A program made the position numbers and the translations under genes. Positions 2,791-27,931 of a stretch of DNA of 64,000 nt are shown in pieces (the stretch's first letter is position 1; the number at the start of each line of letters is the position of its first letter). Under the pieces are notes generated by a model. That model saw only the letters and a list, made by a program, of their open reading frames with translations. It was not told the origin of the DNA and did not search any database. The stretch spans positions 7,972,266 through 8,036,265 of the forward strand of contig NC_049985.1 in NCBI RefSeq assembly GCF_000003815.2. The letters are read 5' to 3'. The DNA is from Branchiostoma floridae. Lineage: Eukaryota; Chordata; Leptocardii; Amphioxiformes; Branchiostomatidae.

Positions 2791-5700
2791 ATGAAGACTG
2801 CAGCAACTGTCAGCGTGCCACTCTTAGCGATCTGCTTCTTTGCTGGAATGTGGACTACAGGAGTGTACTACAACTATTACAAAGGTATAGATTGTGATTC
2901 TTGGGATCCTCTTTTAAACTATCTACTTCATAACAGAGGTGGACGGTCGGTAGGTAGGTAGGTAGTAGGTGTGTGCGCATCATGGGGTTATCATGAGTTA
3001 TAAAAATGATCTAGTGGTTAGGATTTGCCGCTCTCACCGCCAAGGCCGGGCCTAATTCCCGGTGTGGGAATCAGTGTAAAAAAAAAGAGTACAAACTAAC
3101 AGGAAGAAAACACAATGTCCTGATACTCGGGATTCGAACACGCGCCGATCCCGGGCCGCCAGATCACAGTCCCAGACGCTAAATTATTACGGCAAAAGCT
3201 TAAAGCCGTTTCGAACCAGATCCACGGTGCGTAATGTATAGTATCAAACTCCGGTGCCCGTTTGACTCCCTTAGCCGGCTACACTCCTTGGCAAGCTTTG
3301 ATACTATCTTATGGCACCGTAGGATCTGCTTGGAGATTACATAAACCCCACTGTTACAGTTCTGGACTCGATATAGATCAAGAGTGCCATGCTTACTCGA
3401 TATTAATCAATTTCATGCTAATTTCTCAAATTACTACATAATAGATGCCCATCTTGTTTGTCAAAGACATCACAGAATTGACATTTTCCGCCTTTTTTCT
3501 TCTGACAGAAGCGGTGAACGAAGGAATCCCGGAGCCACAGAGGAAATGGAGACACAGTAAGACCCAGACAAGACTTCAGGAGGGGCTGGACGTCTGGGCG
3601 CGTCGTAACCATAGCTACCATGACGTCACAAAAGTCCTGTACAACAGGGTACCTAAATGTGGGAGTAACACCATGAAAGTGCTTCTCAGAGAACTACAGA
3701 ACAGAAATCGCTTTCAATTCTTTGAAGACAAGGATTATGGACTAAAGGCACTTCCTAACAAGCTGTTGGTGAGTTAAGGTCATTTTTTTCACATGGGGCG
3801 GGTTGTGACCAGGTAGGGTTTATGCAGTATAATCCTATAGTTTTAGAAAATCACACGTTGATGTAATATTAAACAAATCGGTTTCCCCCTTTTTCATCTA
3901 CTGACTAACATTACCAGAAAATTGCACCCTCGGCAAAGATGAGGTTTGATTATGAGTTTTTGCTCCACTTATACATGACACGAGAATTGTGGCTTATGTT
4001 TGTGACCGCAGCGTAAGTTTGTACAAATGGTCGACCAGCTTCCGAGACCGTCCATCTACGAAAAGCACATCTACTACGTGGACTTTCAAAAGTAAGTGTC
4101 AAGAAGCTCTTGTTTTTATTGTTAGTATTATACGTTTGAGAAGAGTAAAAAGAAAACATAATCTTCTTCATGCATGTTTTAAAGCTAAACGAAGGGTTTT
4201 TCTCCGGACCTTCAGTCCTTTGCAGGAGATTGTCAGTTGAATCCTTTTAACTTACGTTTAGAGCTTTTGCTACAAGCAAACCCTAATATGAGCTTTCTTA
4301 TCTTCAAGGTTTGGTAAGCAGCAGCCAACATACATTAATCTGGTCCGGGATCCCCTAGAGCGTCGAATCTCTGGCTACTACTACATGCGGTTTGGGCGAA
4401 TTGACGGCAACCAAAAGCAAAAGCGAACAGAGGAGGAAAAAGCACAGGTTTATGAAACGATAAAGAATTCCCGACATGATAACTTTTCACGAGAATTTCA
4501 TTGACGTATCTATCTCAATCGTTGATAGGGGGTTAAAGAGCTGCCGTTGTCATATTCATTGGTCAAAACCATTTCCGAGTATTCCAATATTGCTTATTAC
4601 ACTGCGGTTATGTATTGCTTGGAAGGGAACATTTCTTTTACTCCATTTTCTCTTCTTCTTCTTACATGAACAGACAAATCAACGACTTGGACCAAACGGA
4701 CACATAATGTAGCAAGTGGCAGGATAGAGCTGGAGGACCTGGTCTCTCCATACAAATACATGTATATATATATGGCGTACTTCAGTACTTGTTGCCTTTT
4801 TAATTGATCCTGGTTATTCTATTTCTTTTCTAGACGTTTGATGACTGCGTACTAAACAACCTGTGGGAGTGCGATGAGTTCGGACCGAAAACTTTTACGA
4901 TGACACAATTCTTTTGTGGGCAAGAATCAATTTGCATGTAAGTTATACCAGTATGCGGATAACCTTTATGTTTTCCCTATGTTTTACATGATTCGCATGA
5001 AGTGCTATACTTGATGATCTTGAGTACTTAACGTTATAAGCTATACTAAAGATATTTTCTCACTGGTGTAGCTAAAGGGTGTGAGCGCAATAGTTCTATA
5101 TGCCATTTAATTATTTATTGATCTTTAGGGTAGTCCCTTCAGTTAACGTAGTAACTGATTATGGCATATGATTATGGCATACTAGGAGAATGCTATTTGT
5201 TCTAGGGAGCCTTCCCAGATGGCAGTTGAAGTAGCCAAAGAGAACATCAGGAGGCACTACGCTGTGGTCGGGGTACTGGAGGAGTTCAGCAGCTTCCTGA
5301 AGGTCCTGGAGGTGGTCATGCCGCAGTTCTTCCGCGGAGCTCACGACACCTGGCGGAAAATTGGTGGGTAGCACCTGTCTTGCAGTCGGTTATTTGCGCC
5401 AACTGAGTGCAGACACGGTTTAAGAACAAACAGTTGGCGATTTGTTAGGAAAGACCACGGCGGACACAATGTTAGACGAATGATGTCTTTTATAAAGATC
5501 AATTCCATATTTTTGATAGAGACCATAGATGATCATGCCTACTAAAGCGTATTATTTTGTTATATACGGTATATTTGTTTGTAGCATAATCAATTTTGAA
5601 TGTGACAGAATATTTTTGTTTGCATCTTGCAGAGTCGAAGCAGATGGAACACCAGAAAACGGCTATAAAGATACCTCCTTCTAATGAGTCTCGAGAAATC

Positions 5701-5793
5701 ATGAGAGAAAGATTACACCTGGACTATCAAGTTTATGACTTTATCAAGGAGAGATTCCACAGGCAGAAAACACAGCTGGGAGTCAAGGACTGA
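2791..5793 (+). CDS. UST: Uronyl 2-sulfotransferase-like gene 1 of 5 (331 aa)
   Basis: Exons 2791-2884, 3509-3768, 4012-4091, 4309-4447, 4834-4937, 5206-5363 and 5633-5793; all introns are GT-AG and phases match. A type II Golgi membrane enzyme expected to move sulfate from PAPS to the 2-O position of uronic acid in dermatan/chondroitin or heparan chains. Exon 1 is a signal anchor (about residues 8-26) with a WTT motif. LYNRVPKCGSNTM (75-87) is the 5'-phosphosulfate loop; KCGS is typical of UST, whereas HS2ST has KTAS. KHIYYVDF holds His137, aligned with the HS2ST catalytic base. YINLVRDP (153-160) binds the PAP 3'-phosphate. CGQESIC in exon 5 and the C-terminal YDFIKERFHRQKTQLG match UST. 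The protein is shorter than human UST (about 406 aa) because it lacks the acidic tail. Substrate choice (uronic acid of DS/CS or HS) is inferred from family only. Confidence 0.93.
3005..3070 (+). pseudogene. Degenerate tRNA-Glu(CTC)-like sequence
   Basis: CTAGTGGTTAGGATTTGCCG followed by CTCTCACCGCC closely matches the D-arm/A-box and anticodon arm (loop with CTC) of eukaryotic tRNA-Glu. The T-arm reads GGCCTAATTCCCGG, where a working B box would have GGTTCGATTCCCGG, and the 5' acceptor strand is not recognisable. It lies in intron 1 of the first sulfotransferase gene. It is either a tRNA pseudogene or the head of a tRNA-derived SINE. Confidence 0.65.
3112..3190 (-). repeat. tRNA-like fragment (probable SINE head), minus strand
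   Basis: On the minus strand the segment reads GCGCGTGTTCGAATCCCGAG, a good pol III B box (consensus GGTTCNANNCC), preceded by a G-rich stretch that could be a decayed D/anticodon region. A T-run plus strand-equivalent tail follows. It is 40-60 bp from the tRNA-Glu-like piece but in the opposite orientation, so the two are probably separate insertions. Confidence 0.4.
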
Positions 5794-5796
5794 TCA

Positions 5797-5802
5797 AATA
5801 AA
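5797..5802 (+). terminator. Poly(A) signal AATAAA, three bases after the stop codon
   Basis: AATAAA begins three bases after the TGA of sulfotransferase gene 1 (stop 5791-5793). If used, the 3' UTR would be only about 20-35 nt. Whether it is the main site cannot be told from sequence. Confidence 0.5.
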
Positions 5803-7506
5803 GATATTTTAAATATGTGCAAGATACATCTATCGAGTTGTACAGTTTAGTCTGTAACTCTGTATGATCTCAGATATTCAAATTTAGTAAATGTTCTGTT
5901 ATCACAATGTACGCCTCCTATCCTTTGCGTTTTTATGCCATTTCTGGTTGTGAGTTGCCAGGCGGAAGCTTGATACCGAAATTCACCAAAAATCCATTTC
6001 AAATAATATTCAAAAAGCTGCGGTGTATTGAACTAAATTATCATGCATTGAACTAAATTATCATGCATCTTACATCAATTTAGTAAGGACTAGTGATCAA
6101 GATTTTTTCGACTTTTGCTTCTTATCGGTAAGAGCTCTCAGGCTGCCTGTAGGTAATGTGCGGGATACGGTGAAAAATCAGTCACAATCATATTACCTGT
6201 TACACTTGTTAACTACATTTCCTTACGCCTATACATCGCGGGCAGGCTTACACACTCAAGTCCTACAATCAAAGATACAGTACAGCATACACGTTTATCA
6301 AGGACAATTACTTAACAGCGCACCGAATGGGTAGGTTCTGCCGATGAGAAGGCGGGGTCTCCGGTATCCGGAATTACCTGCTCCCGGCAACACATTGACC
6401 TTCATGCTTCGACCCTCGTGTTTATAATTACTACAATCGATGCATTGAACCAGCGCTTGCAGCATGAAGGCACCACACTGCAGCTATGACCATCTTTAGG
6501 TCGGTACGGCTGGACGAGAAAGATGTGTCGCCTGTCAGGAAACACCGTCTAAAGCTTTAAATGTGTGTACTACAGTAAGTACAGGGACATCTATCTATAT
6601 GTATATATATAGCAATTTTACAGTACTATTAACCAGAGACTTTTTCTCCAAGGTCAGTTTTACGGCGGTGTCAAGGCCGACACATTTCTGGGACATGCGT
6701 AAAGTAAAAATAGAACCTTGACCCACAGAGGCACCGGCTTTACCCTCCTCCTCCATACTCGTGTATCTTCTTGTTGACACGCAGTAATTCGCGTGACACT
6801 AGATAAATAGTTAAGGCAGGCGCTCTTTATATATCTCATCGCCCTGCCATAACTAATCACTGTTAACAGCGCTAAAAGGTGGCAATGAGACATGGCAAAC
6901 GGTGTGTCCCGCGAGACACGTACTTTTCTTACTTGTTACAGAAAGCATTTTAGGTTTTCCCTTTTCTATACGTGGTTTGGAGGGATATACATCATGTGAT
7001 CTCATCATTTGGCACACACGGGGAGGGTAATGATCACGAGAGGCCCTCCCAGGGTAAATCTCGTACCGCCCCTCACAGGAACACAGGTCCATACGTCACA
7101 CGGAGTGGGGACATGTTTGACATGGACCGGGCTGGAAGGATTGTCAGGGCCTGTCGACCGTACCATAGGTAAGTTTGTAGGAGAGATTAGGGAACAATGT
7201 TTACATACCTGAAATGCAAGTGAAGACGTTATCTACTAAAGTTTGCCAAATTAGGACGTTATCCCTGAACTCCTTATCCATCGCCACCGACGGTTAGTCA
7301 GAAATCATAAGACTCAGATGCCACTTGTAGCGGTTTAAGCCTAAGTACACTTTGATAATGGTCTTGAAATCAATGTAGCATAGTTTTCAGGAAGTAGGGC
7401 ATTGGTGGCCCGAGCTGTTTCTCTATCTGCGGTTGGATTACAGATTCCCCAGGCGTAACCCAACAGACGCAGCCTGTCAAGCTGTACTACATATCAGGCG
7501 ACGAAC
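5803..7506. other. Intergenic between sulfotransferase genes 1 and 2
   Basis: No gene is recognised. Contains a short tandem duplication (TTGAACTAAATTATCATGCA twice, about 6029-6067) and a small AT dinucleotide tract near 6595-6612. The overlapping short plus-strand frames at 6972-7212 have no domain and no consistent splice sites. Confidence 0.45.
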
Positions 7507-10500
7507 ATGAAGAAGTCGGCAGCGGTGGCCGTGCCGTTCACAGCGCTCTGCTTGTATGTGGGGGTGTGGACTACTGGGCTGTTCAACGCCTGTTATAGAG
7601 GTATGGTAACACCGTTCACTGACTTCACTGACTATGCTGAACGCATCATGAGCAGAATAATGATCAATGCTGAGCCTCCAAGCCTGGCTGCAAGTGAACA
7701 CAAAACAATGCGCTGATTCTTTATACAAGTTGACAACGCTGCATTAGTGCTTAACGGCACGTTCGCTGTGGCAAGGTTGTTTTCAAGAAGTCTGACTTCG
7801 GTATGCGTAGGAGACTAACCTATAAATGCCGAAGTTCAGCCCCATACAGCGACTTGGTGTGAGGCCATAAACTTTACCGAGACCGGTTTACAATTATGTC
7901 CGTTCCTGTTCCAAGATCTTGCATCTGGAATTAGTTGGCCTTCAGACCCTCAAGTACTTTTTGGCGGATTCTTAGACAGATGGCATGACCACACATGACA
8001 GGATGTGGTTTTGATTACTTTAACCTGTAAATATAAGTGCGCAAAAGATGCTGGGATTCTAAACGGTCAATTTTAATCGAGAGCGTATCTCAATGACTGG
8101 TAAGTCTGTCGTGGCTCCCTTTTCTTAGTTTGAATTTTTTCTCTTTCTTTCTCTCACTTTCTTCCATTCTTTTGTTTATTCAATTCAAGCCCCCATTTTC
8201 TTATCCTGGTCAACGATTAACGGTTTTTAAAATTAAAGCGACTGCATGACTCTTTAGTTTTCTGTTCAAAGGTATTTAGAAAACAAATCACGTCTTTCAA
8301 AGAGCCGATGATATGCCCCTTCTCTGCATGCATATGAAACGGACAATGGCTTCTGTGACTGATCGACTGTGTCCCCTTCCAGCAGCGTTCAAATCAGGGG
8401 TCAGAACGCGGGATAGACTGGGATTGGAACCCCGACCTTGTGGTCCGGAAACTGGATTACCGACTACTTGCCCGCGGCACGCTAAGCTTCACCTGCCGTG
8501 TGACCGGTGTCAAACGTAGAGCCAGGATGTTGAGATTCTGGATTAGAAACCCCTGACATACCCCTGAGTTGTGTCCTTGTACGATAATCAATTAACACTA
8601 ATTTCCTCAGGTGAAAATGAGTACCTAACTTCGGTTAGAGACGTCTCTCATATAGTACACAGGGACACAGAATCAGTGATAAAAAGTCATGTCTGATTTA
8701 GCTAGTTTTGATCATATATCATAAGTCAAGAGCAGAGCTGGGGTCCCGTGTTTGTGGAGAGACACACTCCGAGCACTTTAAAGAACCTGCCAAACTTTTT
8801 CAAAGTTTTTTTTTTACAGAAACATATATTTAATTTATTTAATAGAAAGGTAGAATTAGTGTTTTAATACACTCTTATTTTAACACGTCTTGTATAGATT
8901 ACATTGCAAACATGCATCCATTCTACCTTCCCTAAACCGTACCGGCGAGCCCTTATTTAAGTAAGTAGTAAATAAGGGCCTCTTTAAATCACAGACAGTT
9001 TGCCACCCACAGTGCATTGAGGGCCGGTTCAGTGTGTTGCACCTTTCGAAGGTATCGAACTTTTCCTTCATGTCATTGGCACTTTTCAATGATTTCATTG
9101 TTTATGTCTGTGCATTATGAGAAATAATCAAGTTATATATGGTGGCATAAACGTTGCACCAAGCAAGCCGAGTGTCATATATCAACTCATCATAGTATAA
9201 GTATACCCGTGCTATACTTTTGCATCTGTATCTGTAGTCGGCATAACCGTTCTTCAGCGTAACACATCAGCTTCGCAGGCAGGCGGCACGGCAACTTCTG
9301 GTACTCTAAACGACACCCAACATGTGCACTTCTAAATTTAAATGAACTATCAAATGAGGATGCTCTTACAGCACTTGATGGTAACATGTTCCACTCAACG
9401 ATAGATCTAGGGAAACAATTTGAACGCCTTGAAACTCTGACCTACTCTCGTTTTCCACTCATTCAGAATTCGAAGATGACAGACCGCCTGCTCCCAGACA
9501 GAACTGGACCAAACGTCACGACCAGAGCCCGGGAACACACCGAGACGACCTGAGGGTTTGGGTACGGGCCGGACATAACTACTCTCGGGTGACTAAACTG
9601 TTTTACAACAGGCTGCCGAAGTGCGGCAGCCGGGCCATGAAGGTTCTCATCGCGCAGTTGCAGGAGAAGAACCATTTCAAGTTCTTTTCAGCCGCCAATC
9701 TACACGCCAAGGCTCTGCATGGCGAAGATTTGGTGAGTAAACCGTCCTTAAATCATAATTATTACAGAAAAGGTGTGACCATTCGTCTTCTACTGTCTCA
9801 GAAAAAGAAGCCAAACCCAATAACTGAATAAATTACAGTTTATCGTTAGACTAGAGTAGTCGCTTACTATATTGTTTTCATTGTCTGTCATTTTATATGT
9901 CCCTTGCAGTTAGCCCTTGGACAAGAACTTGCAATAAAATTATTATCATTTTTCGATTCTTACTGAGATAAACATGTCCTAGTAGTGTCGTACACAAAAT
10001 CATGTTGAAAAAATAATATCGTCATGGAATTTCTGTCTATAAACACAGGATGTCACAAATATGATAGCCTTATTTTTCGATTTACAAAAACAACGTACAT
10101 ATGGGTGATGTATCAGACACAGTCTTGTTTTTGTTTTCAACTTTTCCTACCAGCTACGGTTTGCACAGATGATGGACAAACTTCCAACTCCATCCATTTA
10201 CGAGAAGCACACCTACTTCATCGACTTTCCATTGTGAGTATTCTGCTCCTCGCAACACGCATAGATCCCAAAAGCCTTTTTGAGACACACACACACACCG
10301 TGACACACACACACAGACAACTAATAGATTGTGTCAAAAATCAAACCTCTACGTTGCCTTACAATCGCAGTTCCTTTCCACGTTATCATTTTCTGTCATA
10401 CCGCTTCAAATTGTTATCGGGATCGGACTGGGACAGGGCTGCATTTCATGAATAGAAATGTAACAGTTATGGCCTTTCTTCCTTCCTTAAGGATGGCCGC

Positions 10501-12700
10501 GAAACAGCCGCTCTACATCAACCTGGTCAGAGATCCCATAGAAAGACGCGTCTCTGCTTACTACTACCTCCGGTACGGGCGGCATGGGAACGAGTTCGCC
10601 GATATCCTGAAACTGAGAAGAACAGAAGAGCAAAGAAACCAGGTTTGGGAAAGAGTTATTCGATATGTGTAGGATCAATTTCTTTCATCTGAAATTTTGC
10701 CTCGACTGAATGAAAATATCCATGTGTATGTACAGGCGTTCTCTGCATTTAAACTTACGCTGTTTGAGATATCCACGTCCCTCCTCCGCTTTGAGTAAGG
10801 AAACGGCACACACAGGGTTTATAATGAATGAATGAATGACCTTTATTGTACATTTGTGCTCAAACAAGCTAAGTACAGGTCGTAGCGTTAGTGATAAGGT
10901 ACAATTTTGACAAAAAGGTATCTTATCATCTCTACATATGCTATTACATGCTAGTATGTACAAGTTCAACTTCTTCTCGCTTCTTAAAACAGTTATAAAC
11001 ATAAGGACAGATGGAATCAATAATGAATGGTTTATCTAGTTGCATGAGAAATATGAATTTTTCCGTGGTATTCAAGAATCGGAAATTAGGAAACATATGT
11101 TGTATATTTTCAAAGAGGACGTTTCTTTCGTTGTTGTATAAAGTACAGTCAACAATAAAGTGACATTCATCCTCTATCTTATTCAAGTTACAATATTGGC
11201 AGATTCTTTCTTCCAGAGGAATGTGGTTATGTCGGCCTTTTTCAATGTGGAGTCTGTGTGAACTAATGCGGAGCTTTGTGATGGCTGTTCTGTGCCGAAT
11301 GTTTGCAATCTTTAAGTATTTCTCGTCGTTGTAAGTAGTCTTAAGTAATCTGTATGTTCGTAATTTGTTGTTTTTGCGCATTGCTGTCACGAAAGATTGA
11401 AGGTACATATCTTTTAAACGTTGGTCGATGGATGGAATTATTTGCGATGGATTTAGGACAGATGACATGGGAGAATGCCAGACATAGCCAAAACCACATT
11501 CCTCTAGCGTCTTGCGGACTCCAGAAGCCCAGCATTTAGCGCCTAATGTGTCTAGCTCAAGTTGGCACAAAAGGGCGTCTGCAGACAGACTATCAGCTGG
11601 CACGTTCTGGCGTACTCTAATATACTGTTTGATGGCGTTAAGGGATGCTTCTAGTTTAAGAGGGTGTCTTCCCAGTTCTGCCATTACGGCCAGGTTATAA
11701 AGCGTTGTGCTTCTCCGCGTTAGTGTCATTTTCTATATTTTCATGACCTATGCTGAGTGTATGTGAAGCTAGCGCAAGCAATGGTAATCCATCCGGTATT
11801 CAGAACTTTGGCTCAGCCAAGCTGTTCAAAACCTACTGTCATCAATAGTAACACCACACATTGTAAACGTCACCACAATTCATCTCATTTGTTTTCGTGT
11901 TCGCAGACACTTGACTACTGTGTAGCCAACAACCTGCGTGAGTGCAGCGCGTCCGAGCCCAATAGCTTCATACTGACGCAGTACTTCTGTGGACAAAGTA
12001 CAATATGCACGTAAGTGTCATGTCATTTGACAAGGGCCTAATGCATAAGCTGCATTTGCGAAGTAGGGAAAAGATTAAGTATTAAGAAGCTCAGCAAGTA
12101 GTATCATCTTTTTCTCGACAATTTAAAAAGAAAACAAATAATCTAGAACCTATCCAGTCCACAAACTCCTGTACTGTGACTTTTTCTTAGGAAACCTTCG
12201 CAAGTGGCAGTGGAAGTAGCCAAAGAGAACATCAGGAGGCACTACGCTGTGGTCGGGGTACTGGAGGAGTTCAGCAGCTTCCTGAAGGTCCTGGAGGTGG
12301 TCATGCCGCAGTTCTTCCGCGGAGCTGTGACGGAGTGGGAACATATCGGTGTGTAGCAGACATCAATCATTCTGATCCATTCATTCTGAACAGTTTATAT
12401 ACACATGTCCTATCAAGGATTGATGTGTTCAATTTTTTCCTGGAACTGTCACAGAGTTGAGCCCTTTGCCATTAAGTACAGTAGAAGCATTATCGCATGA
12501 TAGTTCTGAACAACTCCCGTTCATAGTAGTTACAGCTTGATTCTCGAAGGCTATGTATGTGCATGGCAGGTCGTTCAGTGTACTATAACTAGCTGTTGTC
12601 ACGACGAGTGCCTACTGGGCGTGTGTTTCGCGGAAGTCCGTACACGTAGGTATGCATAGCCAGAGTATTTAGATGTTAATATCAATACCTCAGCAAGCAA

Positions 12701-12748
<48 letters not shown>

Positions 12749-12994
12749 CAAAAATCGAAAGTTCTGTAATAGTACCAAATGAAGATCTCTGTACATATCT
12801 TACCATTGATACTTTTATGCTTTAATATTGCAGAGTCGAGTCAAGTGCCATATCAGAAGACGAGGAATAAGATACCCCCCTCTAAGAAAACCATACAAAT
12901 ACTGAAACAGAGATTGTCCCTGGACTACCAAGTCTACGACTTCATTCGGGAGAGATTCCACATCCAGAAAAAACAACTTGGAATCAAGGACTGA
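7507..12994 (+). CDS. UST: Uronyl 2-sulfotransferase-like gene 2 of 5 (337 aa)
   Basis: Exons 7507-7600, 9467-9732, 10154-10233, 10492-10642, 11907-12010, 12191-12348 and 12834-12994; GT-AG introns and phases identical to gene 1. It starts MKKSAAVAVPFTALCLYVGV, a signal anchor followed by WTT. The 5'-phosphosulfate loop is FYNRLPKCGSR, the His-bearing strand is EKHTYFIDF, and the 3'-phosphate segment is YINLVRDPIERR. The Cys pair FFCGQ/IC is present with Tyr replacing one Phe (YFCGQ), and the C-terminus is YDFIRERFHIQKKQLGIKD. In exon 6 the usual AHDTW after FFRG is replaced by AVTEW. Intron 1 (1.9 kb) carries a tRNA-like element and a hairpin; intron 4 carries a LINE fragment on the minus strand. 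It appears intact and is the most divergent in its stem region. Golgi 2-O-sulfation of a glycosaminoglycan is inferred from family. Confidence 0.92.
8385..8515 (-). repeat. tRNA-derived SINE-like element
   Basis: On the minus strand it contains GGTTCCAATCCC (within 8420-8434), a perfect pol III B-box match. Upstream on that strand is an A-box-like GGGCAAGTAGTCGG at tRNA-like distance (about 45 bp). Other arms do not form a clean cloverleaf. It lies in intron 1 of sulfotransferase gene 2. A plus-strand open frame across it has no protein features. Confidence 0.5.
8949..8979. repeat. Perfect 11-bp inverted repeat
   Basis: GCCCTTATTTA at 8949-8959 and its exact reverse complement at 8969-8979, with a 9-base loop. 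It is an intronic hairpin in sulfotransferase gene 2 with no known role. Confidence 0.6.
10287..10318. repeat. Interrupted CA microsatellite
   Basis: ACACACACAC runs interrupted by a CGTG, in intron 3 of sulfotransferase gene 2. Confidence 0.8.
10823..11735 (-). mobile_element. 5'-truncated non-LTR retrotransposon (LINE), C-terminal ORF2 fragment
   Basis: A 261-codon open frame (11729 down to 10944) has the features of the extreme C-terminus of a LINE reverse-transcriptase polyprotein. It contains KNNKLRTYRLLKTTYNDEKY, then RTAITKLRISSHRLHIEKGR, then the zinc knuckle CQYCNLNKIEDECHFIVDC (C-x2-C-x8-H-x4-C). The reverse transcriptase and endonuclease are absent, so it is a dead 5'-truncated copy. 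Its 3' end on the minus strand runs into a CATT tetranucleotide tail (plus strand AATGAATGAATGA near 10825-10838), as in LINEs that end in short tandem repeats. It sits antisense in intron 4 of sulfotransferase gene 2. I could not delimit a target-site duplication. The clade was not determined. Confidence 0.75.
12699..12748. repeat. TG microsatellite
   Basis: About 23 TG dinucleotides with one T interruption, in intron 6 of sulfotransferase gene 2. Confidence 0.9.
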
Positions 12995-13919
12995 TTTATG
13001 TTGCTAGATGCGAACAGTACTCGACTTGGGACATTGTGAGGATTCGGGTTAATGTGAAATACACTCGTACATTCCAACAGTATATTTCTCACTGTGTAAT
13101 AAGGTCAGCAATATCTGGGTTATGTAATTGTTAGGTCTTTTCATTCTCAGATTCCTGTCTCGGAAAATGAGCATTTTGTCTGTTACCACGTTGTATTTTG
13201 CTCTTTCGTCCTTGATTCACCATAACAAAACTACTTTTGAATCAATTTTCCTCGACGCTCCAAATAGCCTCTATTACCTTCAGCTTCCCATGTTTACATT
13301 CCGATATGACTTTGTCGTATACAGAGCGGACTGGTCATTTTGTATCTTTCCCCTCAGGAATCTGTGTGCTGTAAATCCGCACTGATAATAGCAATACGTT
13401 AATTGTAAGTACATGCCCGAGGGCTGATTGCAAGTACATATGAGGATGATCAATACAGTGATATTGAGAAATACTTAATGAACCAGTCTGAATAAAACAC
13501 TGAGTCAGTGAAGCAAACGGTTTGGTTTATGAGGTGGTCATGGGATGACACTGTATACACCAAAATAAAGCGGTTACATGTATAAACGTTACTATCGTAC
13601 GGCCATTATCATAAGCAATATCAAACCCACACATGTATGAAGCAATGTGTAGACCATAACGGACACACCTTGAAGTAAAAAAATAAAAATTACGAATTAC
13701 ACACACACTTAATCGCCATGTTGAATATATGTGGAAAACTCATGCGATGAATATGGAGAAATAATGTTGGTTATGGGAAAGCTGAGCATTCTCAACGACC
13801 AACATTTAACACATAGGTACTTATGACACCTTTCTAGTCAGTTCTGGTATGTAGGACACGGGACTCTATTATAGCAACCGGTCTTCCCTGTCTAATGAAA
13901 CAGTGAATGAAAATACAAG
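12995..13919. other. Intergenic between sulfotransferase genes 2 and 3
   Basis: Probable 3' UTR of gene 2; AATAAA is at 13492-13497. The remainder shows no gene or recognisable element. Confidence 0.45.
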
Positions 13920-15145
13920 ATGGCATCGTCGGCGGTGATCAGGCGTTTAGTAACCTTTATCGTGTTCTTTGCTGTGATCTCAGTTTGGACGACACTACAG
14001 CTGCACCGTGACTTTATAATAGGTACGTCTCTATTCACTACCTAGACAACAATTTCCTAAAGTAGAAAGATAGAACTGTTGTTTTGGGAACATATTGAGC
14101 ATTACACGAAGTCACAATGTAGCCAGTACAACAATACACGAACAATATACCAGCAATATGCGAACAAATTATGCATCATGTCGCAGTCCTGGATGACAAA
14201 CTTCAGCTGCACAGAGAATTTATAATAGGCACGTCTCTATTCACTGCCTAGACAATAATTTCCTAAAGTAGAAAGGTAGAAATGTGTTGTTTTGGGAACA
14301 TATTGAACGTTATAAGTAGTCGACACAATATAGCATGTACAACAATGCAACAATACATAACTGTTACGAGCAAATTAAGTATTATGGTTATAATTTATGC
14401 CGCACTCCTAGATGATAATGAAGTCTACTTAAGAAGAAACGAAGGCGGAAATAATATCTTACACTCTAGATAAGTCGACGAGTTAGTTATTTGGGTTGTA
14501 AATAGGGTCCGACTCTGTTATCTACGCTGAGACAATATGCTGCCTATCAGGAGGACAAATCACGTGATCAGAACTACACAAAACAGCTTGGCATTGCCTT
14601 GTATTTAATAGGCACATCTAAGTACCGTTCAAGACCAGTCTACGGTATTTGTGACAGTAATTTTAGCCGAGAGAGACGAAAATTAGTGGATTCAAATTCT
14701 ACAATACGGCGACCACTCCATTCCCACCTAACAGGCAATCATTAAGTATTTAGGCATGGTGCCGGACCGGAACAACGTGTTCCACACAAAAGATGCACAG
14801 AAGATGGCTTGCATATGGATGAAAAGAAACTCCTCTCGTATGCAGTTTGTTACTACTCTTCAGACAGTCTACCATTTTCTGCAGTCGTGAAACTCATAAG
14901 GACAGTTTGCAAATGTACGTCACGTATACCGGCCCAAGGGCAACCACCTGTTCTTCAGACGTCAGTGCCCTTAAAGTGGCCGTTTTGTCGATGCCTTTGG
15001 CTAGCCATATAGGTATCTCATATTTAACCTATTGGGACGATCTGATTGCTGTCTATCGTTCCCAATTCCTTATTCAGTATCTACCACTATTACCAATATT
15101 CTGAATTACCTTCGCTAGAAGATTATGTGTTGAGCCTGTGAGGTC

Positions 15146-15204
<59 letters not shown>

Positions 15205-18173
15205 GTGCGATCAGAATGAATGGAGAAGCTTTGTTTCTTACGTTGTTTGCTATAGCCTCCATAGCAGGCTCTCTATGGACTTTTTTGGGCACTTTTGCTG
15301 GCATTTCTTTTTGTACTGGGTCGCTGATTGCTGGCCTCTCTCATAGCCGTCCATTTATAAAAAGTCAATAGAGAGCCTGCTATGGAGGCTAGTTTGCTAC
15401 CCGTGTCTCCAAATCTGGAGGAAACATCTGTTTAGTTTACGATCAAATCATCTGATTTCTTTTTGTTTCGTTGGTATAGAGTCTTATCTTAGCGACTTAA
15501 CTTAACAAAATTTTGCTCCAGGTTCTAACTACGAAGCAAAGCCAGCATCAATACAAGCGCGGGTTGAACATGTCCAGGACCAGCAGCCTCTGACCATCTG
15601 GCCTGGTTCCAACCATAGCTACTATAAAGTCTTCTACAATCGACTCCCAAAGTGTGGAAGCACCAGCGTCAAAATACTCATCAGAGAACTGAAAGAGAAG
15701 AACGGATTCAAATTCTTTGAAGACAAAGATTACGAAATCCAGGTTCTTAGTGGCAGAAACTTGGTGAGTTTACAATGCAATACTCTTGCAATCCGATAGG
15801 GTGTACAACGGAACGATCTGGTTGTTGCTGGCATGCTTATTTTATAGTTTACTAAGACAAACAGGATGAATGTTAGTATGCAAAGTACATTTCATGTGAC
15901 ATACATTGTCTAATGTATTCCAGCAAAATTCATTTATGGAGAAAAATAATGTCATTTACACATGGTTACGTGCATGATCTTTCAAACTTGACCGGTACGT
16001 TGACGGGGACAGTAAATTCTATCTTTCATTTCATTTCAGAGTAGATTTGCACAGATGGTCGACCGACTCCCTACTCCGTCTATTTATGACAAGCACATTT
16101 TCTATGTAGACTTTCAGCAGTAAGTATTCAAATTCTCGCATTATGATTTAACCTCTAAAAGATTCAGTCCTTGAACTTGGCCTTGTCAGGCTCCTGAACG
16201 AACTTTTCCAATGCAGATGATGTAAAACGTATCAAATGATCAAAATCCAACAGCATTTACAAGTGCTGTGTTTTAAACAGGCTGTACTTTCTGTTATGAA
16301 GATAACTTGGTATTTCTATAGAGGAACATCTCGAGTCCATGTACAAGTACAGGTTACAATACCCGGTTTCTTTGTTCTGCTTTTAGCATATTTCCGAGAA
16401 TGATACGCTATTTCCTTCTCTCTCTACTCTGTAAGGTTCGGGTTAGACCAGCCGGTGTACATCAACCTTGTCAGGGACCCGGTAGAGCAGCGGATCTCCG
16501 ACTACTATTACATGCGGTTTGGACGACACGGAGAGAATCAAACGGCACAACAACGGCACAGACGGACAGAGAAAGAAAGATCCCAGGTTTCAAGCTTTTA
16601 AAAATAATTAAAGTACACACCATCGACACCGATCTACAAACATACTATTTGTGACAGCTACTAGGCCTGAACTTCCGAGCTACTAGGCCTGAACTTCCGA
16701 GCTACTAGGCCTGAACTTCCGAGACAGTTCATTCTTTTTGGATTAGTCACTGCTTCTTTAGTTGCTATACAAAATTTACAGTTTCTAACAAACATATTGA
16801 AGCATCTATTTTTTAGCACTTTCCACACCTGCAAAACCATTTCTTTAAAACAACACGATCGAAGGGTACAATTATTCAAGTACAATTACAATCAAAGCTA
16901 AAATGACATTTGGATTCATAGATAATTATCACTGACATTTTTGTTTTGTTTTTCCAGACATTTGATGAGTGTGTTTTCAACAACTTGTGGGAGTGTAATG
17001 CCTCTGGTGCCAAGAGATTCCTGATGACCCAGTTTTTCTGTGGGCAAGATTCTATATGCATGTACGTGCGGTAGGATATAACACATGCAACATGTTATAT
17101 ACAAAGGTCAACTGATGAACAGGAAAAGCATAAACAGATCAAGGCCATTTTTAGAAATGTTCTCGGGTAGATGAATAAGTCAGAAGACAAAAGGCAACTC
17201 ATGTCAAGGTCAAATCATTGCTATTAGCATATCGCTAATTTCATCTTCAGTTAGTGTTCTTTGGTATGCCGTAAACTGTATCTATACATAACCTGATTAA
17301 ATGTCGCTTATAGCAGCCCGCCCAACATCCGTTCAGCCTCTGTGGGGAGGGGCCAGTTACAGCCCTGGACAACAGAGTTACACAGACTATATACACATAT
17401 TCATACATAAGCCCGGTTCATACCTCTGAAGTTGTGACAATTATTTATTGTAGAGGCTAAACTTCATTGTAGCTGTAAACTCACGTGAATAAGGTGGTTG
17501 CTAAACAGCATTTTGGATATTCATCAGGAGAACTTTGTTCTAGGGAGCCTTCCCAGGCGGCAGTAGAGAAAGCCAAAGAGAACATCAGGAGGCACTACGC
17601 TGTGGTCGGGGTACTGGAGGAGTTCAGCAGCTTCCTGAAGGTCCTGGAGATGGTCATGCCGCAGTTCTTCCGCGGTGCTCACGACACATGGCGGGGAATT
17701 GGTAGGTAGAAGTCGTCAACGCAAGAATGAAAATTTAAGGAAAAGTAATGAAAGTAAAGCCTACATAAAACGTTTAATGTAAATATGGCTTTGGGATTGA
17801 CGGTTGCACTGATGGTTTGCTATTTTTACACATAGATATAAACATTTATGGAAAGGCGAATGCGGGTGTGAAATTACCAATAATGTAACGTTGAGATTCG
17901 AAATGACGATGGTTGGGTGAGCGTATACGTAACAACGAAAGTTCGTTTTAATAATCTCCCATGGGACCAAATACCAGATTGTATGTGCTTCTCTTATTTT
18001 TGTTCTTTCCAGAGTCGCAGCAAATGGAATATCAGAAAACGGCCAAGAAGAGACCCCCTTCTGTGAAGGCTCGGACTATCATGAGACAAAGACTACAGCT
18101 GGATTATCAAGTGTACGACTTTATAAAGGATAGATTCCACATGCAGAAAACACAGCTAGGAATTGTAGACTGA
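13920..18173 (+). CDS. UST: Uronyl 2-sulfotransferase-like gene 3 of 5 (332 aa)
   Basis: Exons 13920-14022, 15522-15763, 16040-16119, 16436-16586, 16958-17061, 17544-17701 and 18013-18173. Phases are the same as in its neighbours. The N-terminus (MASSAVIRRLVTFIVFF...) has a signal anchor ending in a WTT motif. Key segments are FYNRLPKCGSTSV (5'-phosphosulfate loop), DKHIFYVDF (His retained), YINLVRDPVEQR (3'-phosphate), FFCGQDSIC, and the C-terminal YDFIKDRFHMQKTQLGIVD. Exon 4 carries a Gln/Arg-rich linker after the RFGR motif. Intron 1 contains a partial duplicate of exon 1, a GT microsatellite and a hairpin element. It appears intact and is predicted to be an active Golgi 2-O-sulfotransferase by family. 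Confidence 0.92.
13986..14320 (+). repeat. Tandem duplication containing the 3' part of exon 1
   Basis: A segment from about 13986 to 14110 recurs at about 14190-14315. The copy includes the end of exon 1: the TTTATAATAG junction is present, but the donor reads GC where the true exon has GT. The following intronic TCTCTATTCACTGCCTAGAC is also shared. A further weaker copy of the left edge appears near 14395-14420. The duplicate exon tip is not required by the gene model. Confidence 0.75.
15149..15198. repeat. GT microsatellite
   Basis: About 24 uninterrupted GT units in intron 1 of sulfotransferase gene 3. Open frames across it are artefacts. Confidence 0.95.
15253..15391. mobile_element. 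Foldback (MITE-like) hairpin element
   Basis: Arms of about 33 bp, 15253-15286 and 15359-15391, are near-perfect reverse complements (TAGCCTCCATAGCAGGCTCT on the left, AGAGCCTGCTATGGAGGCTA on the right) around a 72-bp loop. No transposase and no clear target-site duplication is seen. Confidence 0.7.
16657..16722. repeat. Three perfect 22-bp tandem repeats
   Basis: GCTACTAGGCCTGAACTTCC plus GA is repeated exactly at 16657, 16679 and 16701, in intron 4 of sulfotransferase gene 3. Identity between units suggests recent slippage. Confidence 0.95.
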
Positions 18174-19701: not shown

Positions 19702-22620
19702 ATGGCAACATTCCAGGTGGCCAGGCCTTTGCTCTCCTTCGTCGGCCTCTCGGTAGCGATTGCGTTGTGGACGATACCATATCTCCGTTACAACTTTAAG
19801 ATCGGTACGCCTTCAACTAATAATTTACAATTCCGGTGATGGTCGCAAAGTTGGGTAGGTTTGACTTGGCCGTCTTTTCGACGTCAGTGCACAAGTAGCT
19901 CTTGAGTTTTCGACCGTCGTTAACGATTGAAATTGATTGACACTCGAGCTCATTAAGTTAGTTTGAAAACAAGTTCCATTGTGTCTATCGGTTATTTCCG
20001 CTGTGTTGCTTTCCGTACCCTTTAGATGTGTGTGAACTGACAAATCTGATTTCGTTTTGCTTCACTGATAACCTAAGCCCTTTTCAAACCCTGTACCAGC
20101 TTCTGCACACAAAAAGTACGCAGCAGCGACACAAAATTGGACTGGACATGTCCAGGACCAGAAAACGTTGAACATCTGGCCATGCTTCAACCATAACTAC
20201 TCTATGGCCAAACTCGTCTACAACAGAGTGCCAAAGTGCGGAAGTAACAGCGTCGTAACGATCATAAGAAAACTGAAAGACAGGAATGGATTCCACTTCT
20301 TTGAAGACAAAACATATACAGCATATACAGTGCTTCGCGGTAGAAACTTGGTGAGTCAAATGTGTACATAATCCTGTTACATTACTTGTAGAAAAGTCAT
20401 CAACGTGCGATGTAACATCTGCTATTGTGTATAGTAGAATATCATGTTGTAAGTGAAGCAATGGTCGACCTTGCTCAGCTGCCCATGATATTGCACATGT
20501 CCTTGCACATCTCCATGTTTTGCAGCATATGACAGATATGACTATAACAATAATATTATAATAAAGAAATGCAGATAATCCAGAGATTGATTATAGCACA
20601 TGTTTGTACATCGAACTTGGCGAGGCAATCTTATATTTCCACATTTATCAGTATCCTTTTTTTTTCAGAGTAACTTCGCACAGATGATCTATAACTTCCC
20701 AACACCGTCTATTTACGAGCGGCACATCTTCTATGTAGACTTTCATCAGTGAGTACCCAAATGCATTTATCTGATCATCATATTAAAAAAAAAACTTAAA
20801 TCCTATCGTTGACTGAATTCATTAAGTAGTTGGGTAATTCTCAGGTGTAACGTTTGACGAAACAAATGAAATGATGACCTTGCAACGATATCTTAGACAA
20901 TCTGTGCACATGGGTACCATCCCCGCAGGCACTGCTCGCTCTCCCTTTCCATTGCATACAACGCAAGCGAAAGTCAATGTAATTGCGGAGGATGGTACCC
21001 AGGCTACTGTGCAGCCACCATGCCTTCTCCATTTCTTGGTTCTTGTGTGCAGACAAGTTGACATTCGGATATCTCGAGCTCATGAACAAGTGGGAGCAGT
21101 ACATGTACAGTGCAGTACATGACTTGTTCAGTTCTTTTACAAAAATCTTATGCTACTTATGTCGCTCTCTATTCTTTAAGGTTTGGGTTGCAGCAGCCCA
21201 TGTACATCAACCTCGTCCGAGACCCTTTAGAACAGCGGATATCCGGGTATTACTACATGCGGTTTGGACGAGATGGCCAAAACCTGACAGCCTGGCAAAA
21301 GCAAAGACGAACAGACAAACAGAAAGCACAGGTTTAACAACTTCTATAAAGACTGCCCAGTTTTTTAAGTTTCCAAACACTTATTGCAGACAGTGTCTGA
21401 CACGTTAAGATAGAGACTCATTTTCTAGACCTTTGCATGTCCATCTTTTTCTAGACTCAATCATATGTGGAGTTTAGGACAAATCTTTTTCAGTAATCAG
21501 TATTAAACTTTACTTCGTTGTATTTCCAGACATTTGATGACTGTGTTTTCTACAACACATGGGAGTGCAATGCCAAAGGCCCTCTAGTATTTATGATGAC
21601 CAAGTTCTTCTGTGGACACGATGATATATGCATGTACGTGCGGTGTGATATATAACTAATGGGACAGGCAATAGTCTGGCTAGAATAGCTGGGAAAAGGT
21701 GCCTGGTTATAGAGGTCAGCAGAAAGGCAATAGGTGAAGCTTCAGGGTCTATTGCAAATTGCACATTGGGTGATAAGGATACAAACTGTTACTATGTGTT
21801 ATTGGTGTCTGGTTTATGTTTGAAAGGGATTTTATTGCTGTATATTAGTACGGTCTTCTTTGTTACATAGTTATGCTGTTGTTGACAGCCATCAGTAGTG
21901 CGAGTTTTATTTCAGGCAGCCTACCCAGGCGGCAGTAGAAAAAGCCAAAGAGAATATCAGGAGGCACTACGCTGTGGTCGGGGTACTGGAGGAGTTCAGC
22001 AGCTTCCTGAAGGTCCTGGAGGTGGTCATGCCGCAGTTCTTCCGCGGAGCTCACGACACATGGAGGGAAATTGGTAGGTAGTATTGAAGGAAATAGACAT
22101 AAACAATGTAACGTTGGACGCGTTAGTTGTTGTTGATGAAAGTATGTGTTTTGTAGCGAGTCGTACAACATGTATGATGGTATTGGAAATATGCACGACA
22201 AAAGTAGATAGTAGTAAACTGTTCCAAAGTAAGTTTATGTTCTTTTTATGTTCAAACAACGGCTGTAGATAGGTGGATGCACCAACGACATTGTAATTAA
22301 TGCATACGATGCATGCACATGCAAGTGGCGTAATGTTTGAGATACGAGAGCCCAGTTACATATTCTTCGTCTGGTAGTTTCAAGAAGTGAGGCTCGATTG
22401 CAATGTTATGTGCGCTTCCCGTTTTATGTGTTTGGACTTCTTCTATTCGCTAATTTCAGGCTCGAAGCTGATGAAAATGCAGAAAACGTCGAACAAGAGA
22501 CCTGCCTCTGAGAAGGCGCGGGAAGTCATGAGAGAAAGATTGCACCTGGATTATCAAGTATATGACTTTATCAAGGAGAGATTCCACAGGCAAAAATCAC
22601 AGCTGGGAATCAAGGACTGA
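19702..22620 (+). CDS. UST: Uronyl 2-sulfotransferase-like gene 4 of 5 (335 aa)
   Basis: Exons 19702-19804, 20100-20350, 20669-20748, 21181-21331, 21530-21633, 21916-22073 and 22460-22620. This is the most compact copy (2.9 kb). The signal anchor lies in the first 34 residues (LLSFVGLSVAIALWT). Key segments are VYNRVPKCGSNSV, ERHIFYVDF (His retained), YINLVRDPLEQRISGYYYMR, FFCGHDDIC and YDFIKERFHRQKSQLGIKD. It is most like gene 3 in exons 1-5 (both share the HVQDQ linker in exon 2), so genes 3 and 4 probably arose from the more recent duplication. Intact by inspection. Confidence 0.93.
20902..21014. mobile_element. Short TIR/foldback element
   Basis: CTGTGCACATGGGTACCATC at the left and GGATGGTACCCAGGCTACTG plus TGCAG at the right are inverted copies with a few mismatches. 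It is about 110 bp, in intron 3 of sulfotransferase gene 4. Confidence 0.55.
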
Positions 22621-23850: not shown

Positions 23851-26800
23851 ATGATGAAGGCGGCTGGGGAAGTCAGGTTTTTCCTCGCCCTCGTTGTTTT
23901 GGTGGGATTATGGACTGCAGTGCAGCTGTACTACAGTCCTGGACAAGGTACATGTACCAGTCTGTTCATCATTAGACTAGATTATCTAATATATCTATCG
24001 AGCATTTGTAGCGAAAGCAGATATTACTGTACTTTGCACGGAAACACAGACCCCTGGGGAACTTGTTAGACAACAACATCATGAACAATAACACCAGGTG
24101 GCACGATTCTACTGTACTATTTATAGTCATCAGTCGTACGTTAGACTTGAGTGGGAAGCATATTATAATATTCAAGGCTTTGTTCCAAATTCACTGCGTA
24201 GAATCCAGATAATGTTTACGTTGAAGTACGTCAACGTCTTATAAACATGACGCTGACGTTAGACAACAACAACAACAAACAGGATATATAGATTATTCGA
24301 CCCTTTACCCAGTCAACTCGGCCCAACACTCTGGTCAATTCGGCCCAACACCCTGATTAGTTAAATCGGCCAGGTTCGGGGTTAAACTCCTATAGCTAAA
24401 CCCGCGCAATACTATACTACATTTTCAACAGATACCAATTCCAAAAAGCGAGAAAAAGACGAGATATGTATTAGATTGTGAAACTCACGAAGTTGTACCA
24501 ACATGTATGTTTGTAAAAGGATCTATGTTGTGACCTGTTATTAGGTTACTACTACTACTACAATTAGGTTAGTTACTGAAATAACGCATAATAAAGGTAT
24601 TCATTCAATAACCCTTAATACTTAACCGACATTTATCATCACATATCACACAACAAATGCACGTTAGAAATTTCATTTCCCTCTTATTCTGACTTTTTAC
24701 CCATACACTCTTTGTTCAATTGTCTACCAACCCTAATAACTAGCTTTATCCGCTATCAGAATCTACAACTGAGCGAACCCCTGGGCTACTGAAGCAGAGA
24801 TCAATGGTGAACACAAGACTCCGTGACAAGCCTCTAGTCTTCTACAACAGAGTTCCCAAGTGCGGAAGCAACTCCATGAAAATTCTGCTCAGGACAATGG
24901 CAAAGAATAATTACTTCTCCTTCCTTGAAGACAAAGTCTACGTGATAGAAACTTTCGAGGACAACGAGTTGGTAAGTGGGATGTCCTTGCTTTTGTATGT
25001 AATCTTTTAGAGACATGTAGCGTTACGTAAACGCAAGGATAAAGGGTAGAGTAAGATTTTGGGATTGGTATGGATTGCCGATGCAGCAATTAATGTCGAA
25101 ATGCAACGAAAATGTCTTTTTCTTATCATTTTTGATCTATCTGTATTGATATATCTGTATTGATTGTAAGCTTTTGCATGTCATCAGTCCCCGAGTTACG
25201 GTTTTCCGTTTTTTTAGCAAGATTGTCTTTTCTTCGGATGTTACTTACTAACAACACCTTTTTTTTCATATTCCGTTTTCAGCAAATCTATACAGAGTTG
25301 GTCTACAGACTCCCGACGCCTTCAATTTACGAGAAACAAATATTCTATGTTGATTTTCGGAGGTAGGTAACCAAAATGTTTTCTAATCCTGTGGAAAATT
25401 TAAACAGTCATCTTAACGTGTGCCCGGGGTTTCTCACCGCCAACGAAGAATTCATTTGTTACGTTGACTGCATTTCAGTAAGTCACAAATGAATAACACA
25501 AAGTAGCATAAGTACAATTACATTAACAAACAAAATAAACGTACAAACAAGCAACAATACCAATAATCATCACCAAGAATCAATCAAGAATTCCTAGAAA
25601 CATATCAATCCAGACCATGAGATTCCAAAATTTTATTACTCTTTCTTTAAAACAACACCGGTGCCCATGCACCACACAACTAAGGACTAGAGAAATAAAC
25701 ACAAGAAAAGATTTCAGCTTGACCGCAAGGATCATCGCATGTGCCTGTTTCAAATTAAAGGGCATTCAACAAATATATTTACTGATATATGGACTCTTCT
25801 CCGATTTTAGTGTTTGCGTAATGTCTCAAAGTATCTATCTTCTACAGGTTCGGGTTTCAACAGCCTTTGTATATCAACCTGGTTAGAGACCCTTTGGAAA
25901 GACGCGTGTCCTGGTATTACTACATACGCTTCGGACGGGTGGTGCACAGACCAATACCGAGGAACTTTTCACAGCAAGAGATGGCACAGGTTTGTTGTGC
26001 TCATTCTTTGATTTAAAGGACAAGGAATCCTTCAGATAGCGAAAACGGCCGGGATTCAAATTCTATAGTTCCACTACGGCCCAGAGGTAGCCGTGACGAC
26101 TCCGGAAGGCAAGCAACTGTGCCCCAAGGATAATCTGCAAGCAGACCTTGCGATGACTTAAGAATTCAGATAGTATCATTAACTTCCTTGGGAAGGCGTT
26201 TAGCCGGCGTGGTAAAGGAGGTTAATTGACCACCGCATTTCATTTGCCTGTAAAAGGGGAAATGTTACCCCTACAGCGGTCTCTCCAATTTAGGGGCAAT
26301 TATTCGCCTTTTTTTTTTCCTTTTGCTGAACGCTTCCATCCATAACCCTTAAGATAGGAAGGCCTGCTCCCTTGCAACATAGGCATTTATTGTTATTGTC
26401 CAAGGCACTAGTACGATACTTAGCTAAGAAAGCATCTTTTCCCACAGACATTCGATGAATGTGTCCTCAGCAACGCTTGGGAGTGCGACGCTGAGGGACA
26501 GGAAAGCTTTCTGATGACGAAGTTTTTCTGCGGACACGATCCGGTATGCAGGTACGTACTGCATGGTAGATATGGTCACACGTTCTGGGTACCATCAGCA
26601 CGAGATTTATGATGTATATGAAAGTGTTTGTATCACATAAAACATTCCTGTAAAGTATGAAATAAGAAAACACATAATTCATGCACATTTCAGACAGTAA
26701 GCTTGAAGGCTTGGTGCCGTCACAACATCAGACTTACGTACTGNNNNNNNNNNNNNNNNNNNNNNNNNNNNNNNNNNNNNNNNNNNNNNNNNNNNNNNNN

Positions 26801-27931
26801 NNNNNNNNNNNNNNNNNNNNNNNNNNNNNNNNNNNNNNNNNNNAAAAAAAAACAACAACACAGAACCCCCCCCCTCCCATTTCATGACGTGACATTCAGC
26901 GGCCACTTGGCCCCAGTTTCCTTCTAATTGAAACCCTCATAATAAATGTTCAAAATATGACAGGGCTGTAAGAGTTGGATAAACCTGCAGGACGAAAGTA
27001 AAAACATACGTCGTGTATTTCATAAAGTACTTTTAAACTATTTTGTTAACTCGTCCAGACAGCCTTCCCAGGCGGCAGTGGAAAGAGCCAAAGAGAACAT
27101 CAGGAGGCACTACGCTGTGGTCGGGGTACTGGAGGAGTTCAGCAGCTTCCTGAAGGTCCTGGAGGTGGTCATGCCGCAGTTCTTCCGCGGAGCTCATGAC
27201 ACGTGGAAAGAACTAACCCAGCGTATGTATCAAACTCAATTTTCCTTTAAACTACTTATAACGTTATATAAGAACTCAAGTTCAATAAACACTAAACAGT
27301 AGTTGTAATGATTTTCAACCCATTCACTTCAATAGAAACTAAGCCTTTATAAGCTCTGAACGTTTTGGTCAACAACGGAAACGAACATTAGAGAATGGAC
27401 TGACATGGCACTAAGTGAAACACTGACAAGATCAGTAGAAACGAGAAAGGTGGAGAAGACTGGTTATCACATCTCCTGTAGTGCTCCGAAAGTCAAACAG
27501 ACAGAATCGATAGATAGATAAAATAAGATGTACGTTTCTAATTTGAGAACAATTTTTTTACTTCATCTATAATATAGATAGACGCTTCATCTCTTTTGGA
27601 AATGATTCACCATCACCGGATGGCATTGAAAGTCTCCGTCTTTTGTTTGCTTGTATTAACAATGATGTCGTTAATTCCTCAACATTAGGGGTGATAGTGA
27701 CACTGACACCATGGACATGTACAAAATGCTGTTTACATAACATATTGTGCCGAACTTTTCCATTTTTCAGAGACGCAACTTCTGGAAGAACAAAGAACTG
27801 TAAACAGATCACCTCCTTCTCCCAGAAGTCAGAAGATAATGAGAGAAAGGTTAAAGCTGGACTACCAAGTGTACTACTTCATAAGGGAGAGATTCCACAG
27901 GCAGAAAACACAACTTGGAATCAAGGACTGA
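23851..27931 (+). CDS. UST: Uronyl 2-sulfotransferase-like gene 5 of 5 (319 aa), catalytic His replaced by Gln
   Basis: Exons 23851-23947, 24760-24971, 25283-25362, 25848-25989, 26448-26551, 27059-27222 and 27771-27931. The assembly gap lies in intron 5 and does not interrupt coding sequence. The signal anchor is FFLALVVLVGLWT. The PAPS-binding segments are intact: FYNRVPKCGSNSM and YINLVRDPLERRVSWYYYIR. The strand that in the other four copies reads [DE][KR]H reads EKQIFYVDF here (CAA codon 25337-25339, residue 122), so the residue aligned with the HS2ST catalytic base is Gln. The stem is about 16 residues shorter than in gene 1, and exon 6 is 6 bp longer at its 3' end. The frame is open throughout with good splice sites, so this is not an ordinary decayed pseudogene. 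It may be inactive, have a changed mechanism, or act as a binding protein. Confidence 0.9.
24303..24372. repeat. Short tandem repeat, about 23-bp unit
   Basis: CAGTCAACTCGGCCCAACAC is followed by a second unit (GGTCAATTCGGCCCAACACC) and a partial third. In intron 1 of sulfotransferase gene 5. Confidence 0.7.
26744..26843. other. Assembly gap of 100 N
   Basis: Exactly 100 N, the usual placeholder for a gap of unknown size. It lies in intron 5 of sulfotransferase gene 5, so exon content is unaffected but intron length is uncertain. Confidence 0.98.

Follow-up and report, generated by a model that had tools for sequence, protein, structure and literature searches.

A 104-bp segment of exon 6 held in common by five diverged sulfotransferase genes of Branchiostoma floridae: probable short-tract gene conversion

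Why do five neighboring genes that have diverged along nearly their whole length keep about one hundred bases of a single exon virtually unchanged? The question is raised by a tandem array of five genes on the forward strand of a 64,000-nucleotide stretch of the lancelet Branchiostoma floridae genome (contig NC_049985.1, positions 7,972,266 to 8,036,265), hereafter the window, in which all positions are counted. The encoded proteins belong to the Sulfotransfer_2 family (PF03567), for which we tested gene 1 (59.8 bits, E 6e-16) and gene 4 (44.9 bits, E 2.1e-11) against a cut-off of 22 bits. A profile of the five genes also matched the structures of heparan sulfate 2-O-sulfotransferase (HS2ST; PDB 4ndz, E 1.9e-45, and PDB 3f5f, E 3.6e-45), and the genes are predicted to be 2-O-sulfotransferase-like members of the HS2ST/UST family. 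We consider regional concerted evolution of the array by short-tract interlocus gene conversion to be the probable answer, with a probability of about 0.85.

The core of exon 6 and the divergence around it

The segment in question, the core, lies on the plus strand in exon 6 of each gene, at positions 5234-5337 (gene 1), 12219-12322 (gene 2), 17572-17675 (gene 3), 21944-22047 (gene 4) and 27087-27190 (gene 5), as a preliminary description of this DNA had located it. Exon 6 measures 158 bp in genes 1-4 and 164 bp in gene 5, where the 3' end is 6 bp longer; in gene 1 the core is preceded by 28 bp and followed by 26 bp of diverged exon sequence. Genes 1, 2 and 5 carry the same 104 bases, and a single private change sets each of genes 3 and 4 apart, also as described. 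The changes are G>A at core position 79 in gene 3, which replaces Val by Met, and a synonymous C>T at position 12 in an Asn codon of gene 4. Any two cores thus differ by at most two bases. The further statement that every third-codon position is invariant has to be corrected, since gene 4 reads AAT against AAC. A whole-genome DNA search, which ignores highly frequent words and assigns scores to the best candidates alone, found five matches to the core, all within the array; the genome comprises 513 Mb in 431 contigs, with the window on the contig labeled C7. No match with three or fewer mismatches occurred in 100 shuffles of the window.

The remainder of the genes gives a very different picture. 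For the core, the number of synonymous differences per synonymous site (dS) is 0-0.05; for exons 2, 3, 4, 5 and 7 it ranges from 0.36 to saturation, which bears out the earlier remark that exons 2-5 vary freely at synonymous sites. Where all five genes encode the same amino acid, they also use the same codon at 31 of 32 positions in the core; outside exon 6 the count is 23 of 80, and in the flanks of exon 6 it is 3 of 8 (hypergeometric P 5.7e-12). Protein identity to gene 1 is 62-72% over the aligned part, core included. Outside the middle of exon 6, the five genes are anciently diverged from exon 2 on. At the protein level, the core is not a uniquely conserved segment: its identity to HS2ST in PDB 4ndz (16/34 residues) is similar to that of exon 4 (21/45) and exon 5 (15/34), with lower values for exons 2, 3 and 7 (13/50, 9/27 and 12/42, respectively).

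Contrary to the preliminary description, identity does not collapse at the edges of the core. In bins of 8 bases, mean pairwise identity is 0.95-1.0 within the core, 0.65-0.90 in the preceding 32 bases, 0.70-0.71 in the 16 bases directly downstream and 0.51-0.53 in the 16 beyond these, whereas the introns lie at the random level of about 0.25. The identical runs also differ in length between pairs of genes, with 114 bp for genes 1-2, 111 bp for genes 1-5, 109 bp for genes 2-5 and 104 bp for genes 1-4. Counted from the start of the core, they span offsets -6 to 107 (genes 1-2), -1 to 109 (genes 1-5) and 12 to 115 (genes 1-4); among pairs without gene 3, the 3' end falls at offset 107, 109 or 115. 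Because the run ends depend on the pair, the core is the overlap of several tracts and not one fixed element.

Silent sites, gene conversion and its alternatives

Could independent evolution under a strong codon preference have produced the core? As a null model, we fitted a tree to the non-core exons and drew 1500 sets per rate under a strongly GC-biased codon model. At the normal rate, a mean of 14.8 of the 32 codons remained invariant. The observed 31 of 32 was reached in none of the 1500 draws at relative rates of 1 and 0.5, in 4 at 0.25, in 189 at 0.10 and in 718 at 0.05. Strong codon bias alone cannot account for the core.

A search of the genome with the exon-6 peptide returned eight matches, namely the five array genes and one gene each on contigs C4 (63% identity), C9 (49%) and C8 (43%). 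The C4 gene matches exons 2-7 in order and served as an outgroup within the genome. Among the 25 core codons for the same amino acid, 16 are identical to those of C4 in genes 1, 2, 3 and 5, and 15 in gene 4, compared with 14.1 expected by chance for random choice at a G+C content of third codon positions (GC3) of 0.9. The silent sites of the core thus look randomized relative to C4, which suggests that they are free to change outside the array. Outside the core, 34-49% of such codons match between the array and C4, in total 224/526 versus 36.7% if randomized, with the highest value for gene 3 (56/114 versus 42.4 expected). Between the array genes, the corresponding match outside the core is 47-71% versus 36-38% if randomized; since it exceeds the random level, the array is younger than its split from C4, yet old. 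With the path length estimated from the remaining exons, 15.1 of the 25 core codons should match C4 under a normal silent rate, close to the observed 16. A silent rate of 0.05 over the whole path, however, predicts 23.8 of 25, for which the probability of 16 or fewer is 1.6e-6. A constraint common to the array and C4 is therefore rejected.

Repeated short-tract gene conversion, already favored in the preliminary description, provides the best fit to the contrast in dS and to the randomized silent sites. Non-crossover repair between array copies would repeatedly paste a tract of about 100 bp, and such ectopic repair would require locally near-identical DNA. As introns and other exons diverged, they would have lost homology and dropped out of the exchange one after another, leaving the middle of exon 6 above the homology threshold as the last island in exchange. 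Mismatches at its edges would block tract extension and could thereby create sharp, pair-specific borders, while GC-biased repair may keep the tract GC-rich. The array could have been homogenized as a whole, followed by one mutation each in genes 3 and 4. Conversion need not skip genes, as had been supposed, because genes 1 and 2 are adjacent and the whole array can be homogenized. Local exchange also predicts the confinement of the core to the array.

The size and the diversity of the core agree with the published recombination and diversity studies of B. floridae. In the pedigree study, non-crossover tracts have a mean length of 99 bp, 90.9% being shorter than 200 bp, and non-crossovers are GC-biased in every class except maternal events with multiple single-nucleotide polymorphisms (SNPs) (PMC12500494). 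The 104-bp core is thus about the size of one non-crossover tract. Averaged over the five cores, the synonymous difference is 0.018 per site and does not exceed the synonymous diversity between alleles, which is given as 0.0397 in a second study (PMC12862219). One segregating silent site was observed in the core, where five alleles of one locus would be expected to show 1.8 (P of one or fewer, 0.45). Within this small number of sites, the five genes behave as one locus in the core. As a rough age resting on one or two events, the two changes correspond to 0.65 million generations and the single synonymous change to 1.5 million, compared with a 2Ne (twice the effective population size) of 3.4 million.

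We simulated conversion among five copies, in which an event needed 25 identical bp in order to start and tended to stop at mismatches. The rate C denotes conversion starts per bp and ordered gene pair per mutation per bp, and an island was defined as an invariant run of at least 60 bp. Without conversion, no island appeared in 80 runs. At C = 0.8, exactly one island was present in 27/40 and 22/40 runs; it was exon 6 in 7 and 10 of these runs, so that which exon survives is partly a matter of chance. The rate needed per bp amounts to about 0.4% of that published for alleles.

Several points weigh against gene conversion. The evidence comes from a single lancelet genome assembly, that is, from one species and one haplotype. 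The simulated range is narrow: no island formed in 240 runs at C of 0.1-0.4, and an earlier set with other settings gave at least two islands in 7/8 runs at C = 1 and in 16/16 runs at C = 3 or 10. The conversion model is accordingly sufficient, with a single island only in a narrow, moderate range of rates. A pairwise permutation test of the GENECONV type flagged the core in none of the ten pairs. This test drops columns common to all five genes, which is why the core went unflagged, and it is blind to array-wide homogenization; its lowest value was found for genes 2 and 4 (P 0.0015), at a stretch of exon 2 beside alignment gaps. If, in the comparison with C4, the silent rate is set to 0.05 on the array's half of the path alone, 17.2 of the 25 codons are expected to match, and the probability of 16 or fewer is 0.37, so a constraint limited to the array lineage is not rejected. 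GC3, finally, is also high in the homologous segments of the unlinked genes, at 30/34 codons (0.88) in C4 versus 161/263 in its other aligned codons, 27/34 (0.79) in C9 versus 105/169 elsewhere, and 27/34 (0.79) in C8 versus 45/72 in the flanks of exon 6 and a single further exon.

The GC3 of the core itself is 0.88-0.91, compared with 0.55-0.63 in the same genes and 0.4-0.6 in the flanks. Sampling from the codon usage of the genes themselves did not attain the core value once in 20000 draws. The peak resembles a mark of GC-biased conversion, but we dropped it as proof of conversion because the same peak is found in unlinked C4, C9 and C8 (C4:21176406-21176567, C9:9280502-9280654 and C8:9787816-9787956), where the rest of the aligned genes has a GC3 of 0.61-0.62 (one-sided P 0.001, 0.039 and 0.062; combined 0.0002). 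Among three other genes of the window that were checked, two contain 34-codon windows of high GC3 (0.94 and 1.00), and the third reaches 0.71. The peak may predate the array and is not counted as support. Either the ancestor was GC-rich in this segment, or some influence, for instance a preference for certain codons or an inherent recombination hotspot, acts on this exon in every family member found. A speculative and rather unlikely idea is that a conversion hotspot, intrinsic and carried by the sequence itself, occupies the middle of exon 6 in the array and the three unlinked members. If it were true, allelic GC-biased conversion would raise GC3 and the same hotspot would seed the interlocus exchange, which would explain why exon 6 alone stays homogenized.

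Among the alternatives, nucleotide-level purifying selection, originating in the array lineage and freezing the 104 bases separately in each copy as a splicing enhancer, an overlapping signal or an RNA element, is the one with the most in its favor, and we still regard it as unlikely. The preliminary description had offered constraint as the alternative to conversion, and of the two forms compared with C4, only the one confined to the array lineage survives. Such selection would act on a core that is common to all five copies, and the high GC3 that three unlinked homologs show in this segment hints at some shared pressure on codon choice. It would, however, require a silent rate of about 0.05 of that in the other exons, with an onset shortly before the array arose. 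Exon ends are where splicing enhancers usually cluster, and the ends of exon 6 are its variable part. Neither a significant RNA fold in the core (z 0.54 and -0.38) nor an Rfam family in the window was detected, both of which speak against constraint. Nor do the cores have a second frame with common ends: every frame other than the coding one is either closed in the core or open with ends that are unrelated, as are those of sense frame +2 and antisense frame 2, which stay open across the five cores; splicing-enhancer motifs were not scanned.

Two further explanations would place the cause outside a direct exchange among the five genes, and both are far less probable. One read set copied into, or error-corrected across, five loci during assembly or polishing could produce a core no longer than a short read, and a gap of N at 26744-26843 ends 243 bases before the core of gene 5. 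Such an artefact nevertheless seems extremely improbable, as every core sits in unique flanks on both sides, the frames are intact in all five genes and two private differences have been kept; real differences of several percent would, moreover, have full read depth, and their erasure would be unexpected. A common template, either a spliced complementary DNA (cDNA) or a sixth donor gene, would make every copy alike and would suit a tract that lies wholly within one exon, with intron flanks lacking homology. A cDNA should, however, have brought along exons 5 and 7, both of which are diverged, and the genome search contained no sixth copy, so that we consider a template very improbable. An outside donor was discarded as a candidate, given that the five array copies were the only matches in the whole-genome DNA search. 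The viral contigs and prokaryote genomes searched contained no relative, as expected for an animal gene.

Gene models and neighborhood of the array

The spliced frame is open from exon 2 onward in all five genes, and the intron phases agree in all five, as do the splice sites of exon 6. Genes 1-4 are delimited from the ATG of a candidate exon 1 to the stop codon. Gene 1 extends over 2791-5793, with exon 2 (in-frame part) at 3577-3768, exon 3 at 4012-4091, exon 4 at 4309-4447, exon 5 at 4834-4937, exon 6 at 5206-5363 and exon 7 at 5633-5793. Gene 2 (7507-12994) has its exons 2-7 at 9541-9732 (in-frame part), 10154-10233, 10492-10642, 11907-12010, 12191-12348 and 12834-12994. The candidate first exons of these two genes have their match to each other as sole basis, and the same applies to those of genes 3 and 4. 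For gene 3 (13920-18173), exons 2-7 are found at 15581-15763 (in-frame part), 16040-16119, 16436-16586, 16958-17061, 17544-17701 and 18013-18173, and for gene 4 (19702-22620) at 20159-20350 (in-frame part), 20669-20748, 21181-21331, 21530-21633, 21916-22073 and 22460-22620. Gene 5 (24810-27931) runs from the aligned part of exon 2 (24810-24971) to the stop codon through exons 3-7 at 25283-25362, 25848-25989, 26448-26551, 27059-27222 and 27771-27931; its exon 1 could not be located, candidates being seen for genes 1-4 only.

A few features of the individual genes deserve mention. The 5' splice site after exon 4 reads CAG|GTTT in all five genes, the first intron base being 4448, 10643, 16587, 21332 and 25990 in genes 1-5, whereas the other listed donors follow the form GTNNGT. 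In exon 3 of gene 5 (25280-25363), a Gln replaces the His that is present in genes 1-4 and in the C4 homolog and that is aligned with a His of HS2ST, which we take to be catalytic. Judged from this residue, gene 5 may encode a pseudoenzyme. In its final 24 codons, exon 7 is alike in pairs of genes, with 90% for genes 2 and 5 (12920-12991 and 27857-27928) and 93% for genes 1 and 4 (5719-5790 and 22546-22617). The P values of 0.0045 and 0.022, respectively, are uncorrected for ten pairs, and the tracts were picked post hoc, so that they serve as a lead only; these ends are perhaps older or partial conversion tracts.

Two tandem copies at 13986-14147 and 14190-14355, which are 83% alike, lie at the start of gene 3, the first overlapping its candidate first exon; the pair is possibly an alternative first exon or a partial duplication. 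The intron between exons 4 and 5 of gene 2 harbors an open reading frame of 262 residues on the minus strand (10944-11732), resembling by eye the C-terminal part of a retrotransposon protein, for which Pfam gave no match at E 0.001. Upstream of gene 1, repeat units of about 267-291 bp and 48 bp are arranged in tandem at 5-1213 and 2114-2357, respectively. According to Pfam, the neighboring genes encode NHL repeats (37244-38110), leucine-rich repeats with a TIR domain of the Toll-like receptor type (40983-42938), the start of a GTP_EFTU domain (44884-45240, minus strand) and a PA domain (55838-56470).

Comparison with known systems

Regional conversion of tandem paralogs is already known, and the array is a new and very short example of it, not a new kind. 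The clustered protocadherins of fugu are likewise tandem neighbors with divergent 5' parts, a 3' region that is more than 99% identical and raised GC3, from which the authors infer repeated regional gene conversion (PMC1852091). There, the 3' region of variable exons of about 2.4 kb is concerned in large subclusters, unlike the 104 bp in a 158-bp exon of five genes found here, and the GC3 peak of our array occurs in unlinked homologs too. The mammalian TLR1 and TLR6 genes are also tandem paralogs in which gene conversion keeps one region alike while the rest diverges (PMC2077338). That case differs in comprising two genes and about 300 amino acids and in its comparison of orthologs and paralogs in nine species, whereas our array is known from one genome. 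The allelic non-crossovers of B. floridae resemble the array event in a mean length near that of the core and in being mostly GC-biased; they were events between alleles, measured in a pedigree, and the exchange we propose would have taken place between loci (PMC12500494). HS2ST belongs to the same protein family, and this distant protein comparison has no bearing on homogenization.

A search of the open-access literature yielded no paper on an amphioxus uronyl 2-O-sulfotransferase. Among the open-access matches listed, no title or abstract opening gave an account of the array, which may still have been published, and the main text of a study of amphioxus duplications (PMC9673378) mentions neither gene conversion nor a sulfotransferase.

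For this gene family, trees and orthology calls made from exon 6 would mislead, and pairwise conversion tests overlook homogenization that is common to a whole array. The array would show, in a clean natural form, how concerted evolution ends, with one island of about 100 bp left amid exons that have diverged at their silent sites. Together with the published pedigree data on recombination and mutation in B. floridae, it is a locus at which the homology threshold of ectopic conversion could be measured.

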